In this document: positions 3,312-10,435 of the stretch, piece after piece
Layout: each line of letters begins with the position of its first letter
Position numbering within the stretch: position 1 is the first letter of the stretch
Assembly (NCBI GenBank): GCA_028289585.1
Contig: JANQPI010000026.1
Span: 372,001-436,000 of the forward strand
From: Candidatus Zixiibacteriota bacterium
GTDB lineage: Bacteria; Zixibacteria; MSB-5A5; GN15; FEB-12
Length of the DNA stretch: 64,000 nucleotides
Direction of reading: 5' to 3'
Position numbers and translations under genes: made by a program
The notes under the pieces: generated by a model
What the model saw: only the letters and a program-made list of their open reading frames with translations
What the model was told of the DNA's origin: nothing
Databases searched by the model: none

Positions 3312-3345
3312 CTTCTCGCCATCTTCAATGCGGGAAGGAGTGACT

Positions 3346-4497
3346 GTGGGAAATCTTCGTATTGCCGTCCTTGGTGCCGGGCTGATGGGCCGAGCGGCCG
3401 TCTATGATCTGGCCCGAACCGCTTCGGTCTCTACTGTTGGTGTCTTTGACCGCGATCTCGCTCTCGCTCAGTCGGTCGCCTCTGAATTCGGCGGCGGCAA
3501 GGCGACCGCTGGAGTCATTGACGCCAGCGATATATCCGGTGTCACGGCGATCCTTCGTGACTACGATAGCGCCGTTGCGGCAATCGATTATCGATACAAC
3601 AAGCATCTGACGACGGCAGCGATTGCCGCAAAATGTCATCTTGTTGATCTCGGTGGCAACAACGACATGGTTAATGCTCAACGCACGCTTTCCGATCAGG
3701 CGGAGGCAGCCGGTGTGATCGTTATTCCCGACTGTGGCTTGGCACCCGGGATGGTTGCCGTACTGGTCGCCGGGGCTGTCGCTGATTTTGATCGTGTCGA
3801 GCGGGTCGCCATCCGGGTCGGCGGGCTCCCCCAAAACCCACAACCACCATTGAATTACATGATGGTCTTCTCTGCGGAGGGGTTGATCAACGAGTATTGG
3901 GAACCGTGTGTGAAGCTTGAGAACGGAACCAAAGTAATCGTTGATCCCATGACCGAGATCGAAACGCTCGAGTTCAATGGCGTCGGCACGGTCGAGGCGT
4001 TTACGACTTCCGGAGGTTCATCCACACTACCTGATACGTACAGTGGCCAAATAACGCATCTCGACTATAAGACAATTCGCTATCCCGGCCACTGTGCTCG
4101 GTTCCGGCCGATGCTCGAACTTGGGTTGGCGAGCCGGGAGATGTTAACCGTTGATGGTCAGGACGTTGAACCGCGGAACGTGTTTCGACACCTGCTCAAT
4201 CGGGAACTGACGTTCGATGACCTCGATATGGTCCTGGTGCGGGTAACCGTCAAGGGCGTACGAAGCGGATCGGATGCTCGACGCGTGTATGAGATTATCG
4301 ACCGTCAACCGGATCGGGATTCGTTGACTGCCATGATGCGAACGACCGCGTGGCCGGCGACGATCAATGCGCTGATGGCTGCCGACGGACGGGTTGTTGC
4401 GCGCGGTGTGAAACCGCAGGAGTTGGTTATCGATCCGCCACAGTTTATCGCGGAACTCCAGCAGCGCGGGATACCGTTGACGATCTCGGATGCCTAG
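3346..4497 (+). CDS. Saccharopine dehydrogenase-family NAD(P)-dependent oxidoreductase (LKR/SDH-like)
   Basis: A 383-aa enzyme with an N-terminal Rossmann fold, GAGLMGRA at about residues 8-15. The central signature (VDLGGN, then PDCGLAPGM) and the C-terminal domain are typical of lysine 6-dehydrogenase/saccharopine dehydrogenase proteins, which act on amino-acid derivatives in the cytoplasm. The substrate is not determinable here. GTG 3346 is chosen because GGAAGGAG (3333-3340) sits 5 nt upstream; ATG 3328 would place that site inside the gene. Its stop overlaps the stop of the convergent pseudopilin gene in the tetranucleotide CTAG (4494-4497), with no terminator between them. Confidence 0.82.
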   Translation: MGNLRIAVLGAGLMGRAAVYDLARTASVSTVGVFDRDLALAQSVASEFGGGKATAGVIDASDISGVTAILRDYDSAVAAIDYRYNKHLTTAAIAAKCHLVDLGGNNDMVNAQRTLSDQAEAAGVIVIPDCGLAPGMVAVLVAGAVADFDRVERVAIRVGGLPQNPQPPLNYMMVFSAEGLINEYWEPCVKLENGTKVIVDPMTEIETLEFNGVGTVEAFTTSGGSSTLPDTYSGQITHLDYKTIRYPGHCARFRPMLELGLASREMLTVDGQDVEPRNVFRHLLNRELTFDDLDMVLVRVTVKGVRSGSDARRVYEIIDRQPDRDSLTAMMRTTAWPATINALMAADGRVVARGVKPQELVIDPPQFIAELQQRGIPLTISDA

Positions 4498-5234
4498 AAG
4501 AGGTCGAGCGGAAAGATTACTTCACAGGAGCGATCCTGACCGGGCAGGATCGTTACTACCGATGTTGTCGTATCGTTGAGCGGCAAGTACACGGTTGTCA
4601 ATTCGTGGCGGCCAATAGGAAGTCCGGAGAAGCTGAACGATCCGTTGGCCAACGGCGCTACGACGGCTGCTGTAACGCCGCCGCTGCCATTGGGATAGCT
4701 CAACCGAATCGTTATCGAATCCGCAAACGAGCTTCCCGGCGCTGCACCTTTGGCATCGCGCAGAGTACCGATCAGCGTGTTGGCGGTGAGATCAGCGCTG
4801 GCGGTCGCAAGTGACGTTGAAATCGTACTCCCACCGCCGTTGGAGTTTACGGTCACCCCCACCAGTGTATAGGCTGCCCCCCACCCATCCAGCAAGTATG
4901 CGGCGACGTCCCCATCGCGTGTTTGCAGATACGGACCGTCCCAGGTCGCATAACTGCCAGGATTGGTAATCAGATCGGTCAGGCTACCGGGAAGCGCACC
5001 AACATCACCGACATATCCGAATCCAGCCTGCGTGCCATCCGGGCTGACCGAAGGGTCGCCGATGATTGCTGTCTTGATCGCTTCGAGCTCGGTCATCGTG
5101 TGCTGAACGCGGGCATCGTCAACCGACGTCATACTTTCCCGGATGGCAATCGCGAGCACGACGCCCATGATGACCAGTACAATGGCGATCTCGACGATTG
5201 TGAAGCCGCGCTCATTGGTGAAACGATACGTCAT
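4494..5234 (-). CDS. GspG-like pseudopilin 4 (minimal form)
   Basis: This is the last and shortest member (246 aa) of the four-pseudopilin run. It has a class III prepilin signal: a short basic leader ending in NERG, then FTIVE with Glu at +5 and a long hydrophobic helix (about 11-32). The GspG-type globular part follows with GFGYVGDVGALPGSL (about 68-82), WDGPY and DGWGAAY (the counterpart of DPWG in major pseudopilins). An ~80-residue carboxypeptidase-regulatory-like beta domain ends the protein. Unlike its three neighbours it lacks a further C-terminal domain. ATG overlaps the preceding stop by 4 bp (translational coupling). Cleavage would need a PilD-type peptidase, which is not in the window. 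Confidence 0.85.
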   Translation of the reverse strand: MTYRFTNERGFTIVEIAIVLVIMGVVLAIAIRESMTSVDDARVQHTMTELEAIKTAIIGDPSVSPDGTQAGFGYVGDVGALPGSLTDLITNPGSYATWDGPYLQTRDGDVAAYLLDGWGAAYTLVGVTVNSNGGGSTISTSLATASADLTANTLIGTLRDAKGAAPGSSFADSITIRLSYPNGSGGVTAAVVAPLANGSFSFSGLPIGRHELTTVYLPLNDTTTSVVTILPGQDRSCEVIFPLDLF

Positions 5235-6394
5235 AGCACAAAACTCAATCCGCTGCCATCGGAGAGGGTAATCGTCACGCTGGCTCCGCTAACGTCCTGC
5301 TTCGACCCACCACCCGACGTGTTGTTGGCGCGAAAATCGCGAACCTGCAACTGGATGAGTTCACCAGGCGGAGAGGCAGGAGGACTGATCGGATATGATG
5401 TTGCCGATACGCCTCGTGGTGAACCGTCTTCATTGAACACTGTAGTACCGTTCCAGGTGATTTGGCCGTAGTAAGCAGTCGGCGCATCCCATTCGACCGT
5501 TATTGATGTTATCGTCAACGTGTCTGAAGCTCCATTCTGCATCCAGACGGTGAAGTTTTCATTGTGTGGGCTTGACGACCACACGGTATCCGAACTCACC
5601 ACCATCTCCATTCCACTGGCACCTCCAGACCCCCCGGTGCTCCCCGTGTCCACTATCCAGTTACGACTGAATCGCCAGTCCGTCACAATTTCGCTGGCTG
5701 GCCCAATGGTGACCGTGCGTTGGAGGGTGTCGTCGATCGAGTTGTCGATCACGCGCATGAGATGCCGTCCGACCGGAATAGAGTCGAAAACGAACGATCC
5801 GCCGCGGTTGATGCTGCTCGATCGTGTTGTCGTTCCGCCGGAGCCGTTGGGAATGGTGATCGTTGCCGTTAGGGAATCGATCATAATCTCACCAGGGGGG
5901 GAACCGTCAAGATCGCTCAACTGACCGGTTACCCGATTGATGAGCAACGCATCACTCGAACTCGCGATGTGACGAACGATGGGGCTACCGTTGCCCGTCG
6001 ATCGAACCGTTGTTCCCGAGAGAATATAGGTCGCGCCCCAGGGGTCAGTAATCGGATCGTTGCCGCGTTCGTTGATCTCGGCCGTTACGTATGGTCCGTT
6101 CCAGGTCGCGTAGCCGCCGGGATTGGTTATCAGGTCATTGACCGAACCGGGCAACGCACCGACATCGCCGACGTAACCGTACGACACGACCTCGCCGGGT
6201 AGCTCGCGGGCGGCATCGCCAGCTGCGCCAATAGCCAGACGTTCCAACTCCACCCTGGTCTGTTCAACCCGAGTGTCGTCGGCGATTCGTCCGACATTTT
6301 GAATCGCAACACCGGCCAGGACGCCCAGAATGATGACGACCACGATGACCTCGACGAGGGTAAATCCTGAACTGGTGCGGTTTGGCGTGGTCAT
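5231..6394 (-). CDS. GspG-like pseudopilin 3 with C-terminal extension
   Basis: A 387-aa pseudopilin. The leader ends in SSG, followed by FTLVE (Glu +5) and a hydrophobic helix. The shared motif YGYVGDVGALPGSV, WNGPY and TDPWGATY mark the GspG-like core. Next comes the carboxypeptidase-regulatory-like beta domain (SFVFDSIPVGRH region). A Gly/Ser linker (GSTGGSGGASG) leads into a beta-rich C-terminal domain of about 120 residues unrelated by eye to those of pseudopilins 1 and 2. It overlaps both neighbours by 4 bp. The extension would project from a pilus-like fibre or tip and may bind a substrate or surface; this is inference. Confidence 0.85.
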   Translation of the reverse strand: MTTPNRTSSGFTLVEVIVVVIILGVLAGVAIQNVGRIADDTRVEQTRVELERLAIGAAGDAARELPGEVVSYGYVGDVGALPGSVNDLITNPGGYATWNGPYVTAEINERGNDPITDPWGATYILSGTTVRSTGNGSPIVRHIASSSDALLINRVTGQLSDLDGSPPGEIMIDSLTATITIPNGSGGTTTRSSSINRGGSFVFDSIPVGRHLMRVIDNSIDDTLQRTVTIGPASEIVTDWRFSRNWIVDTGSTGGSGGASGMEMVVSSDTVWSSSPHNENFTVWMQNGASDTLTITSITVEWDAPTAYYGQITWNGTTVFNEDGSPRGVSATSYPISPPASPPGELIQLQVRDFRANNTSGGGSKQDVSGASVTITLSDGSGLSFVL

Positions 6395-7710
6395 GGTGTC
6401 ACCACCAGCAGGACATCATCGAAGGAGATCTCGGTCCACTCGTTGGAGGCCGTCTTGGCGTTATTGAAGCCACCAAGAGCGAGTGTGTAGCTGCCGGGAG
6501 TGGCGTAGCCGAGGGAAATCACAACCGTTTGCCAATTCGAATCGCCGCCACCACAGAGTTCGGAGCCGACGTAGTCATTGGGGGACTCGCCGTACAGGGT
6601 CCCATTCCAGCTGACTAAGACGTGCGAACATTCTCCGCTCTCGTAAGCACTTTCCAGATCGAGTCGATAGGCGAGCTGTAGCGAAACGTCGCCCGCTTCT
6701 GTAACCGTTACCGTATGTTCGAAGCCGCCCGACATACTGTCGATGTCGTTGCCATTGATGCCACCCAAGGTGACGCGCAGTCCCCCGCCGCTCTGACCAT
6801 ACGAACCATCATACGAGCCATCGGCATAACTCGGCTGGCTGGTCGATCGGAAGAGATCATCGGCATAGACGAAGCCATCGTTGCTGCCGGTGAACGAAGC
6901 GTTGATCAACGTGTCGGGATTGCCGCTGCCACCGCCGCCTCCGCCCGATCCGGAGGTGTCGCTGAAGTACACCTCAGTAAAGCGAAACGTGAGCGGTGGC
7001 CGATTCTGGTAGTTGGGGAGAACGGCAATAGCGCGGGTGAGGGTATCAGCATCGGGTAGCCAGATCGCCCGGACGGTGCGAATTCCGACGGGAATCGAGT
7101 CGAAGCTGAAGACACCGTCGAGTTCTGGAGAAAGGGATCGAGTGATCAGCCCACTACTCCCCCGCGGGAAGTCGATTTCAAGACGAACCGAATCAACGAA
7201 GGATGCGCCCGGCAGGCTATCCGCGTTGTCGGTAACCAGGCCGATGACGTTGTTGTACAGATAGTGATTGGTTGCGGTGAGGACGACCTGGCTAATCGCC
7301 GTGCCGTTGCCGGTGGACGTCAATCGAGATCCATCGAAGCTAATTGCCACACCCCAGGGATCGGTACGATAGGAGAGCGTATCCTCGTTCAAATCGATAT
7401 CGACATACGGACCATTCCACGTCGGCAGGCCACCGGGGTTAATCGCCAGGTCGCGCAGGGATGTCGGTAAGGCTCCGATATCGCCGACATAGCCGAAATC
7501 AGAACGGATGCCATGAGCAGTCAGGATGGGATTACCGACAATCGCATGAGCGAGATTCTCCAGGCGAATTTCAGCCTGAGCCTTGCGCACATCCTCGATG
7601 GCCATGGTGGCGGATTGCATGGCGAGGCCAGCCAGGATTGCGACAACAACAATCAGAATGGTTAACTCGATCAACGTCAGACCGCGCTCGTTGTTGACAT
7701 AAGAGGTCAT
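6391..7710 (-). CDS. GspG-like pseudopilin 2 with jelly-roll-like C-terminal domain
   Basis: A 439-aa pseudopilin. The leader ends in NERG, followed by LTLIE (Leu instead of Phe at +1, Glu at +5) and the hydrophobic helix. The core contains FGYVGDIGALPTSL, WNGPY and TDPWGV, then the carboxypeptidase-regulatory-like domain. A Gly-rich linker (GSGGGGGGSG) separates a C-terminal beta domain of about 170 residues. That domain aligns by eye with pseudopilin 1 (DGFVYADDLFRSTS, HVLVSWNGTL, ISFDDVLLV). Its two cysteines, near GEC and SELC, could form a disulfide. It is coupled to both neighbours by 4-bp overlaps. Confidence 0.86.
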   Translation of the reverse strand: MTSYVNNERGLTLIELTILIVVVAILAGLAMQSATMAIEDVRKAQAEIRLENLAHAIVGNPILTAHGIRSDFGYVGDIGALPTSLRDLAINPGGLPTWNGPYVDIDLNEDTLSYRTDPWGVAISFDGSRLTSTGNGTAISQVVLTATNHYLYNNVIGLVTDNADSLPGASFVDSVRLEIDFPRGSSGLITRSLSPELDGVFSFDSIPVGIRTVRAIWLPDADTLTRAIAVLPNYQNRPPLTFRFTEVYFSDTSGSGGGGGGSGNPDTLINASFTGSNDGFVYADDLFRSTSQPSYADGSYDGSYGQSGGGLRVTLGGINGNDIDSMSGGFEHTVTVTEAGDVSLQLAYRLDLESAYESGECSHVLVSWNGTLYGESPNDYVGSELCGGGDSNWQTVVISLGYATPGSYTLALGGFNNAKTASNEWTEISFDDVLLVVTP

Positions 7711-9026
7711 GGCAGCTGCACCAGCAGAACGTCGTCGAACAGAACGTCGGCGTTCTCGTTAACTGTCGTTTTCTCGTTGTTGTATATCCCAATGCGCAGG
7801 GTATGCGTCCCAGCGGTCAGGTTGCCGAGGCTAATCGTTACCTGCTGCCACCCGGTGGTGAAGTCGGTCGATCCGCCGCCGCCGTAGAGGCGATCGATGT
7901 AGTCGAGCGAACCAACACCGACCAACGTACCATCGATCGACACCAATACCTCACTGTACTCGTTGGACTCGTAGTATGAGTCGTGGCGAAGTGAGTAACG
8001 GAATGTCAACGATCCTACGCCGGCGCGCGTCGGATTGACGACAATCTCCCATGCCCCGGACATTCCGATAATGTCACTGTTGTCCACGGCGTCGATGTTG
8101 GCACGAATTGCGCCACCGGTATAGCCGTCGGAAGCGCGATATTCGCCCGACGCATAGTCCGGTTCGGATGTGCCGCGGAAGGCGTCGTCAACGTAGCTGA
8201 AGCCATCTTCGTTGGTGTCGAAGTCAGCAAGGATGAGCGTATCCTCAGTGACCGCGACCACTGGCGGGGAATACGCGAAGAGCGAGCGATAGAGCGGGAT
8301 AGTTGCAACGTAGTCATTCCCCGGTGCAATGGCCAGATGTCGATAGACCGTATCGTCGAGCGGCTGGTAGACAACGCGAAGGTCGGGATGACCGATCGGA
8401 ACCGAATCGTATGTAATCGATCCGTCGGCAGCCGGGTAGGCCGTGCGATAGGTCAGTCCGCCACTGCCGTCGGGATGAATAAGCGTTACGGTGATAGAGT
8501 CTTTGTAGATGTTTCCCGGAAGGTAGCCGTCGAGATCGGTAACGGTAACTCGGACCGCGTTATTGAGAAGAGCGTCAGTCGATGGCCCCAAGCGCCGGCT
8601 GATCGTCGATCCGTCGGTTGCTGCCGTAATCACAACGCCCCCACCGTAGCCCAAGCTGTTTCCCCAGGCATCGGTCAACGTCAGGGTTGCGCCTGTGCTC
8701 GTCGAAACCTGATCGACCAGGTAGGGTCCGTTCCAGGTGGCGTAACTTCCGGGGTTGGTCAGCAGGTGTCCGAGGTTGGCTGGTAGAGCGCCGATGTCGC
8801 CGACATAGCCAAAGTCGGTGCGGTTACCGCCCGCGGTCAGGTTGGGGTTACCAGAGATGGCATGGGCGACCCGGTCGAGCCGGGCGCGAGTCGTTTCCAG
8901 CCGCTCCCGCCCGGTCGAATGGTCGAGCGAACGGATAGCGATGCCAGCCATGATCGACAGCACGATGATGACGACCAGGAGTTCGACCAGCGAGTAGCCG
9001 GTAGATGTCAGCCGAGGCGGTTTCAT
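7707..9026 (-). CDS. GspG-like pseudopilin 1 with jelly-roll-like C-terminal domain
   Basis: This is the first gene of the pseudopilin run (439 aa). The leader ends at Gly10, followed by YSLVE (Tyr at +1, Glu at +5) and a hydrophobic helix to about residue 34. The GspG-like core spans about 60-130 (DFGYVGDIGALP at 71-82, WNGPY at 98-102, DAWGN at 119-123). A carboxypeptidase-regulatory-like beta domain covers about 155-235, and a MAM/CBM-like beta sandwich about 262-439 (EDGFSYVDDAFRGTS, LFDDVLLV at the end). It begins 54 nt after the ferredoxin terminator. No assembly ATPase, platform protein or secretin is nearby. Confidence 0.86.
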   Translation of the reverse strand: MKPPRLTSTGYSLVELLVVIIVLSIMAGIAIRSLDHSTGRERLETTRARLDRVAHAISGNPNLTAGGNRTDFGYVGDIGALPANLGHLLTNPGSYATWNGPYLVDQVSTSTGATLTLTDAWGNSLGYGGGVVITAATDGSTISRRLGPSTDALLNNAVRVTVTDLDGYLPGNIYKDSITVTLIHPDGSGGLTYRTAYPAADGSITYDSVPIGHPDLRVVYQPLDDTVYRHLAIAPGNDYVATIPLYRSLFAYSPPVVAVTEDTLILADFDTNEDGFSYVDDAFRGTSEPDYASGEYRASDGYTGGAIRANIDAVDNSDIIGMSGAWEIVVNPTRAGVGSLTFRYSLRHDSYYESNEYSEVLVSIDGTLVGVGSLDYIDRLYGGGGSTDFTTGWQQVTISLGNLTAGTHTLRIGIYNNEKTTVNENADVLFDDVLLVQLP

Positions 9027-9077: not shown

Positions 9078-9104
9078 CCAAAACGCCGCCCGGTCGGGGC
9101 GGCG
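9078..9104 (-). terminator. Rho-independent terminator after the ferredoxin gene
   Basis: The 8-bp GC stem CGCCGCCC (9084-9091) / GGGCGGCG (9097-9104) has a 5-nt loop. Read on the minus strand it is followed by TTTTGGTTTGG. It separates the Fe-S operon from the pseudopilin operon. Confidence 0.75.
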
Positions 9105-9137: not shown

Positions 9138-9458
9138 CTAGAACGTATCGTCTTCCCAGCTAACCTCGTTGTCGGGAATCTTGACGGTCAGGTCGGTCGT
9201 CTTGACCAACGCCTGGCAGGAGAGCCGGGAGGTTTCGGTCAGCCCTTCGGCCTCGTCGAGCATATCCTCTTCGTCCTCGGTCATGTCGTCAAGCGATTCG
9301 TACCCGGCCTCCACGATGACATGGCAGGTTGAGCAGGCGCAGTTGCCACCACAGTTGTGGTCGATCTGAATATCATTGTCGAGGGCCGCGTCGAGGATGG
9401 GAGTTCCTTCGGGAACGTCTACGGTTACGTCAATCGGCATAAAATGAATCTTGGGCAT
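9138..9458 (-). CDS. fdx: [2Fe-2S] ferredoxin (ISC/adrenodoxin type)
   Basis: A 106-aa plant/adrenodoxin-type ferredoxin. Cluster ligands follow the Fdx pattern C-x5-C-x2-C in CGGNCACSTC (about 36-45), with the fourth Cys in RLSCQA (about 82). The acidic surface (DDMTEDEEDMLDEAEG) resembles ISC ferredoxins, which supply electrons to Fe-S cluster assembly. One additional cysteine sits inside the loop (CGGNC). It is the third gene of an iscA-DUF2480-fdx run, 39 nt after DUF2480. A purine-rich AAGGAAG precedes the start on the minus strand. It is followed by a clear terminator. Confidence 0.9.
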   Translation of the reverse strand: MPKIHFMPIDVTVDVPEGTPILDAALDNDIQIDHNCGGNCACSTCHVIVEAGYESLDDMTEDEEDMLDEAEGLTETSRLSCQALVKTTDLTVKIPDNEVSWEDDTF

Positions 9459-9497
9459 TATGAGACAGGCTTCCTTAGCATGACATCGTCGTGGGCA

Positions 9498-9770
9498 CTA
9501 TTTGGAATCGCTTGATACGGTCTTTGCCCGTCGAAAAACAACGACATTATCGTGCTCGTTTCCGTACCGAACCGATTTGGCTCGACCGGTGAGTCGGGCA
9601 GTGATCAGCATATAGATCCAGGGAGGGACGATCGTGCTGCAGCCGCGAACAAGGACCTGTTGGTCGTTGTATTGTGACCAATCGAACGCGGCGGCGCGTT
9701 CGAGAAAGGCGTCTTCGCGGAACATCTCCCCCTCAATGAGATCGCTGGGGTCGAGAATGGCAAACGCCAC
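9498..9770 (-). CDS. DUF2480 family protein, short form
   Basis: A 90-aa protein matching from memory the C-terminal half of DUF2480, a family known mainly from Bacteroidetes and of unknown function: FDWSQYNDQQVLVRGCS, then VPPWIYMLITARL and a closing VVVFRR. Family members are usually about 165 aa, so some 70 N-terminal residues are absent. No in-frame remnant is visible upstream, because only 6 nt separate it from iscA. A single cysteine lies in the conserved GCS. Its position between iscA and fdx suggests a link with Fe-S metabolism; this is inference from context. Confidence 0.65.
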   Translation of the reverse strand: MAFAILDPSDLIEGEMFREDAFLERAAAFDWSQYNDQQVLVRGCSTIVPPWIYMLITARLTGRAKSVRYGNEHDNVVVFRRAKTVSSDSK

Positions 9771-9776
9771 GGTCGA

Positions 9777-10136
9777 CTAGCAGCTAAACGAGGTGCCACA
9801 GCCGCAGGACCGCCGGGCATTCGGATTGTCGAACAGGAAGCCGCCACCAACCATCGCATTCTTGTAGTCGATCGTTACGCCCTGGAGATAGACGAGTGCC
9901 TTGAGGTCAACACGGATCTGGATACCGTCGTCAAACTCAAGCACGCGATCGAAATCGGAGACTTCGGTGTCGAAGTCCATCGAATAGGACATCCCCGAGC
10001 AGCCGCCTGGTGAAACGCCCAGACGCAGAAAGACATTCGGATCATCCTCATCGGCCAAGAGCTGCTTAATCTGGTTGCGAGCGGCCTCGGTCAGGGTGAC
10101 CGGCTGAGCGGTGTTTTTCGTGTCTGCTGTCGACAT
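9777..10136 (-). CDS. iscA: A-type Fe-S carrier protein (IscA/HesB)
   Basis: A 119-aa HesB/IscA protein that holds or delivers Fe-S clusters. The three ligand cysteines are present: GGCSGM near residue 47, and CGCG near the C-terminus. The start at 10136 is set by AGGAGAG on the minus strand a few nt upstream. A longer reading frame would run through the promoter. It is the first gene of the iscA-DUF2480-fdx run, transcribed divergently from an Rrf2-type regulator. No iscS, iscU or hscAB lies in the window. The symbol refers to the family; ErpA or SufA roles are equally possible. Confidence 0.9.
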   Translation of the reverse strand: MSTADTKNTAQPVTLTEAARNQIKQLLADEDDPNVFLRLGVSPGGCSGMSYSMDFDTEVSDFDRVLEFDDGIQIRVDLKALVYLQGVTIDYKNAMVGGGFLFDNPNARRSCGCGTSFSC

Positions 10137-10191
10137 CGGTACTCTCCTGGCTGAAAATGCCAGCCTCATTCTTCCGGCTAGCTGTGTCGAG

Positions 10192-10219
10192 AATATATCG
10201 ACCTTTTTCGTTCTAACAA
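10192..10219 (-). promoter_or_regulatory. Promoter of the iscA-DUF2480-fdx operon
   Basis: On the minus strand, TTGTTA (10219-10214), a 16-nt spacer and TATATT (10197-10192). Transcription should begin about 10185, giving a ~50-nt leader with a small hairpin, CTGGC/GCCAG (10147-10163), next to the ribosome binding site. Confidence 0.5.
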
Positions 10220-10435
10220 CCAAAGTCCGGGCCGGTTCGAGGAGGCTGGTGACTCATCGTGACGATTTTTACCGATTTTTCTTTAAGGGACACAATAAAG
10301 TATGCATCGTAACGGTATCAGCGTCGAGGCTGCGCCAAGCGGATGTCGACGTTTCGACGAAACTTTATGCGTGGCAGGGGGTTAAAACGGACAAAGCGGG
10401 TCTCTGCTAACGCTAGACACAAGGGGCTTACATAT

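Follow-up and report, generated by a model that had tools for sequence, protein, structure and literature searches.

The window analysed here, a stretch of 64,000 nucleotides, lies on contig C23 of a Candidatus Zixiibacteriota genome (3.15 Mb, 99.6% complete) and carries a cassette of four tandem prepilin genes, pp1 to pp4, placed between a ferredoxin gene and a convergent dehydrogenase gene:

9138..10223, reverse strand: ErpA/HesB-like gene, small conserved ORF labelled IscX and 2Fe-2S ferredoxin gene; flank of the proposed relocation site, outside the system
9084..9104, reverse strand: hairpin resembling a terminator, with 8 GC pairs and a T-rich tail, in the gap that separates the ferredoxin gene from pp1
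9026-7707, reverse strand: pp1, first gene of the cassette, encoding a probable modular minor pseudopilin of 439 aa; besides the pilin core it has a beta domain and a predicted jelly-roll tail specific to the lineage
7710..8276, reverse strand: pp1 tail, residues 251-439, of which residues 304-439 are modelled as a carbohydrate-binding-like jelly roll
7710-6391, reverse strand: pp2, probable modular minor pseudopilin, 439 aa, second position; tail homologous to that of pp1
6394..6960, reverse strand: pp2 tail, residues 251-439, sharing about 48% identity with that of pp1
6394-5231, reverse strand: pp3, probable modular minor pseudopilin, 387 aa, third position; tail of a type common in relatives
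5660..5956, reverse strand: pp3 beta domain, residues 147-245; transthyretin/CnaB/carboxypeptidase-regulatory-like fold in the predicted structure
5234..5644, reverse strand: pp3 tail, residues 251-387, member of the major tail cluster
5234-4494, reverse strand: pp4, probable short minor pseudopilin, 246 aa, last position; core and beta domain without tail
3328..4497, forward strand: saccharopine-dehydrogenase-like gene, convergent with pp4; opposite flank of the proposed relocation site, outside the system

All four ORFs begin as type IV filament prepilins do: Gly at -1 and Glu at +5 mark a class III prepilin signal, and a hydrophobic N-terminal helix follows. A 4-bp stop/start overlap was seen at each of the three junctions between pp1 and pp4. 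The signal and the overlaps agree with the preliminary description. The N_methyl domain scores above the Pfam cut-off in pp1, pp3 and pp4 and below it in pp2 (17.7 vs 21.2 bits), TIGR02532 passes its cut-off in the same three proteins, and the alpha1 helix covers residues 13-58 in the AF2 models of pp1 and pp3. The pp2, pp3 and pp4 proteins are 35-42% identical to pp1. Conservation of the prepilin signal in relatives is partly by construction, since the G and the E were demanded when homologues were extracted. The four proteins might be produced in a fixed ratio, as had been proposed, but junction spacing in relatives ranges from -40 to +76 bp; of 120 junctions examined, 48 are overlaps and another 58 leave 0-20 bp between the genes.

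The GYVGDxGALP, W-x-GPY and DxWG motifs are kept in the four cassette proteins, and 31 of 66 homologues match Pfam T2SSG at E <= 0.01. To that extent the GspG-type core described earlier stands, but the T2SSG scores of pp3 and pp4 (12.1 and 16.1 bits) are below the cut-off of 21, and the Pfam search of the cassette proteins reported neither T2SSG nor CarboxypepD_reg for pp1 and pp2. With TIGR01710 (GspG) giving 16-35 bits against a cut-off of 88.85, none of pp1-pp4 falls within the GspG family as delimited by the curated cut-offs of PF08334 or TIGR01710. Nor does the cassette correspond to a GspH, GspI, GspJ and GspK set including a GspK devoid of Glu5: among its proteins the GspH model stays below its cut-off, the GspI, GspJ and GspK models have no match, and with Glu at +5 in all four a Glu5-less GspK-like cap is not among them. 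The hhalign comparison with E. coli GspG covers the N-terminal 55 columns and nothing beyond, those with E. coli GspH, GspI, GspJ and GspK are weaker and all restricted to the N-terminal region (probability 1.2 for GspK), and a PDB sequence search with the core profile matched N-terminal helices of pilins only. The AF2 model of pp3 (pLDDT 90) starts with a long helix, continues with two short ones and short strands, and ends with the beta domain and a beta-rich tail; that of pp1 reaches pLDDT 77. The pilin-core fold of the cassette proteins is a predicted one, drawn from the AF2 model and weak Pfam matches.

The carboxypeptidase-regulatory-like beta domain noticed earlier is clear from its predicted fold, though sub-threshold by sequence: CarboxypepD_reg stays below its cut-off in pp3 and pp4 and is matched at E <= 0.01 by 22 of 66 homologues, while structure searches relate the domain, at about residues 147-248, to transthyretin-like carboxypeptidase-regulatory and CnaB-type domains (Z about 8-11). 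By alignment it is present also in pp1, pp2 and pp4. Searches with the full models were filled by this domain, with no type IV pilin among the matches listed and the core itself barely compared, so that their outcome does not count against the core. The cassette proteins thus join a prepilin module to an extra domain that is not specific to pili, which is the definition of modular pilins. Among long tails, 108 of 113 fall in one similarity cluster, that of pp3 included, whereas the only significant matches of the pp1 and pp2 tails, in the collected homologues and in their own genome, are each other. A donor within the genome was rejected for the pp1/pp2 tail, as the genome search matched nothing except these two. 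On sequence grounds, the cassette tails are modular and the pp1/pp2 type differs from the one common to most relatives. The modelled pp1 tail resembles the C-terminal sugar-binding domain of EclA (Z 9.5) and BcsB (Z about 9), and NF038128 (choice_anch_J) reaches 17.3 bits in it, below the cut-off of 30. The model is of moderate confidence, with 10-residue blocks at pLDDT 51-86 past residue 320, and suggests a putative carbohydrate binding by the pp1 and pp2 tails.

Because a terminator-like hairpin lies between the ferredoxin gene and pp1, the cassette is probably its own transcription unit, transcribed apart from the ferredoxin gene. A sigma-70 scan, which may not suit this phylum, reported no consensus promoter between the hairpin and pp1. 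At the other end, pp4 shares 4 bp (4494-4497) with the dehydrogenase gene that converges on it, at the stop codons of both. In several relatives, secreted-looking proteins with dockerin repeats are encoded downstream of pp4 on the same strand (L068:11256-12749, L041:8859-10487 and L035:4810-6144, repeats identified by Pfam; L048:4899-7226, repeats recognised by eye from the C-terminus only) and could be cargo or partners; a literature search combining Zixibacteria and dockerin found nothing.

Machinery genes are absent from the neighbourhood of the cassette, as first described, but not from the genome. The genome search located T2SSE/T2SSF-type genes on contigs C18, C16 and C20, an additional T2SSE match at C23:539432 and a single prepilin peptidase match, at C16:178039. 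The C16 operon reads, in order, GspE (with an MshEN domain), GspF, a PilA-like pilin, a short GspG-like pilin, PilM and PilN, a GspM-like and a GspC/B-like component, and a secretin; it lacks both a minor pilin and a retraction ATPase. The PilB, GspE, GspF, PilQ and GspD models all remain below their curated cut-offs on this machine, whose components resemble both T2SS and T4P, and secretion of folded proteins by it is putative. A gspE/F/D-like set thus exists elsewhere in the same genome. Two other filament systems were found: dispersed T4aP-like genes with pilins of their own, named from their sequences as PilA, FimT-like and PilV/W/X-like, and, on C20 (L011, G000:C20:295000-313000), a third, T2SS-like system with its own pilins, whose type of secretin occurs in 14 of the 132 genomes of the phylum. 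Two adjoining PilA-like pilin genes were also observed at L010:8384-9706, 3' of a gene with response-regulator receiver and sigma-54-activator-like sequence. By elimination among these systems, the cassette would be assigned to the C16 machine.

A contig scan retrieved 77 loci of the pilin family, mostly from Candidatus Zixiibacteriota or equivalent names, a few being labelled in their records as Calditrichota, Ignavibacterium or FCB group. This one gene family has two genomic locations. In many loci the cassette sits, as in the window, between PdxS-Rrf2-ErpA-IscX-ferredoxin and dehydrogenase-VWA genes, while about twenty loci have family members within the machine operon, flanked by the GspG-like pilin and PilM, with one to three copies in these sister lineages; a few cassettes are found in other neighbourhoods. 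In one genome (G073) the cassette site is empty: the PdxS-Rrf2-ErpA-IscX-ferredoxin genes directly adjoin the dehydrogenase and VWA genes, which are convergent to them, less than 20 bp separates the ferredoxin and dehydrogenase ORF ends, and the operon carries three homologues. In another (G088) the dehydrogenase gene adjoins Rrf2-PdxS without a cassette, and one homologue is in the operon. The operon form being more widely spread, movement out of the operon is favoured, but the tree rooted on pilG leaves the direction unsettled, as it places the operon copies as the sister clade of pp4, after the pp1-pp3 splits, with weak deep support.

In a tree of 233 sequences, pp1, pp2, pp3 and pp4 form separate groups, the window pp3 branching just outside the main pp3 group, and the best relatives of each window gene fall in its own position group. 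The four genes, initially taken for four GspG-like proteins, are instead position-specific paralogues, and the C16 operon has a separate short GspG-like pilin. The same gene order recurs in relatives: 26 complete four-gene cassettes, a count that treats as pp3 a group labelled '?' by the script, all follow pp1-pp2-pp3-pp4. Two variants were seen, one of four genes in which pp2 occurs twice and one of six genes.

The family is present in 106 of the 132 genomes of the phylum; 98 of them also have a detected C16-type secretin (E<1e-35), against 0 of the other 26 (Fisher p 7.5e-21, indicative only, as the genomes are not independent). This line was set once the E values had been inspected, where they leave a gap from 4.6e-40 to 3.0e-30, and the genomes were counted by hand. 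Mixed presence of the pilin family and the secretin recurs within families f5, f7, f9, f15, f16 and f17, and many genomes without the pilin family have weaker matches (E about 1e-21 to 1e-30) to secretins of other types. Like T2SS minor pseudopilins, the family is thus encoded or co-occurs with a T2SS-like machine. The eight genomes with the pilin family and no detected C16-type secretin are G004, G014, G029, G062, G071, G085, G087 and G098; several are incomplete bins, G014 being listed at 95%. T9SS-like C-terminal tails (Por_Secre_tail) occur in all 132 genomes, with 7 to at least 39 per genome; a cargo link to them is unsupported, as they are found whether the machine is present or not.

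Taken with the genome search, the operon homologues of sister lineages and the matching phylogenetic profile lead us to reject the original reading of an orphan pilin set. A related reading, in which pp1-pp4 build a filament of their own that is driven by a shared motor and not specially linked to C16, could draw on the physical separation of the cassette from the machinery in the window genome and on the upstream hairpin, suggestive of an own transcription unit. We consider it very improbable in view of the homologues inside the machine operon of sister lineages and of the secretin distribution (98/106 vs 0/26), and such bulky two- or three-domain proteins would be unlikely shaft subunits. 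The undescribed fibre once envisaged finds no support either. Only slightly less improbable is that the four proteins are minor pilins of another filament system, the dispersed T4aP or the T2SS-like one on C20: three filament systems share this genome and minor pilins can be encoded far from their machine, but the T4aP already has FimT-like and PilV/W/X-like pilins, C20 has its own pilins and a secretin restricted to 14 of 132 genomes, and all 26 genomes devoid of the family lack the C16-type secretin while many retain other secretins.

The nature of the tip itself is less one-sided. It is quite possible, if somewhat short of an even chance, that the cassette serves the same C16 machine as the outward-facing head of a surface pilus, an adhesin or a sensor, and not as a cargo-pushing secretion tip. 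The beta domain and the predicted sugar-binding-like jelly-roll tail, the replacement of the tail in one lineage, the MshEN domain on the C16 ATPase and the adhesive function of the modular pilin PilB of Streptococcus sanguinis (PMC8179133) are in line with this possibility; against it, the C16 operon has no retraction ATPase and its GspM-like and GspC/B-like components are T2SS-like.

We therefore regard it as highly likely that the cassette encodes the minor pseudopilins, likely forming a tip or priming complex, of the T2SS/T4P-like C16 machine, relocated and expanded. Since sister lineages keep the family inside the machine operon, we read the cassette as a displaced and enlarged component of a machine of known type and not as an orphan fibre. 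The modular secretion tip suggested at the outset appears as its likeliest role. The prepilin peptidase at C16:178039 would process pp1-pp4. Packing of their N-terminal helices would then join them in a tip complex, which may act as the primer when the GspE-GspF motor polymerises the PilA-like and GspG-like pilins of C16. At this tip the bulky beta domains and tails would face or pass the secretin and could bind an exported protein or an outside ligand, and a binding head that can be exchanged would be in keeping with the carbohydrate-binding-like tails that pp1 and pp2 have in this lineage. A more speculative extension, to which we give slightly less weight than to the adhesin or sensor head, is that pp1-pp4 form a hetero-oligomeric, exchangeable tool head replacing GspH-I-J-K on a Zixibacteria filament machine, with tails swapped between lineages and altering what the tip binds.

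The cassette is covered by known concepts, T2SS minor pseudopilins and modular pilins (PMC8179133), and no named set for it was found in Pfam, NCBIfam or the literature searched; searches on Zixibacteria type IV pili and secretion systems returned nothing beyond Chlamydiae evolution. Like GspH-I-J-K of T2SS, it is a small set of non-major prepilins, adjoining the GspG-like pilin in sister lineages, and provides the only minor-pilin candidates for the C16 machine, with a presumed tip role. Unlike them, its members all belong to a single paralogous family with a GspG-like core and Glu at +5 throughout, have one or two beta domains in addition and are encoded off the operon, sister lineages having as little as one copy. 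PilB and PilC of S. sanguinis are modular minor pilins with a grafted non-pilin domain (PMC8179133, PMC9934059); the cassette proteins share this layout, the expected position of the bulky module at the tip, and a widespread occurrence in varied architectures, but differ by their grafted domains, their secretin machine and their four tandem paralogues in fixed order. With GspG (PF08334 / TIGR01710) they have in common the LP...W-GPY...D-WG motifs and the predicted two short helices and short strands, and they depart from it by scores below the curated cut-offs, their extra domains and the separate short GspG-like pilin of the C16 operon. The Bacteroidetes-type 'T2SS' (PMC6668835) is likewise a secretion-like filament system outside classical T2SS definitions, a likeness given as a lead only.

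A pilin cassette that looked orphan is thus assigned to one particular machine of a phylum with few cultured members, a warning that a window without machinery does not equal an orphan system. The family also spans a natural series, beginning with a single minor pilin in an operon and reaching four or more paralogues elsewhere, in which to ask how filament tips gain subunits and swap binding domains.
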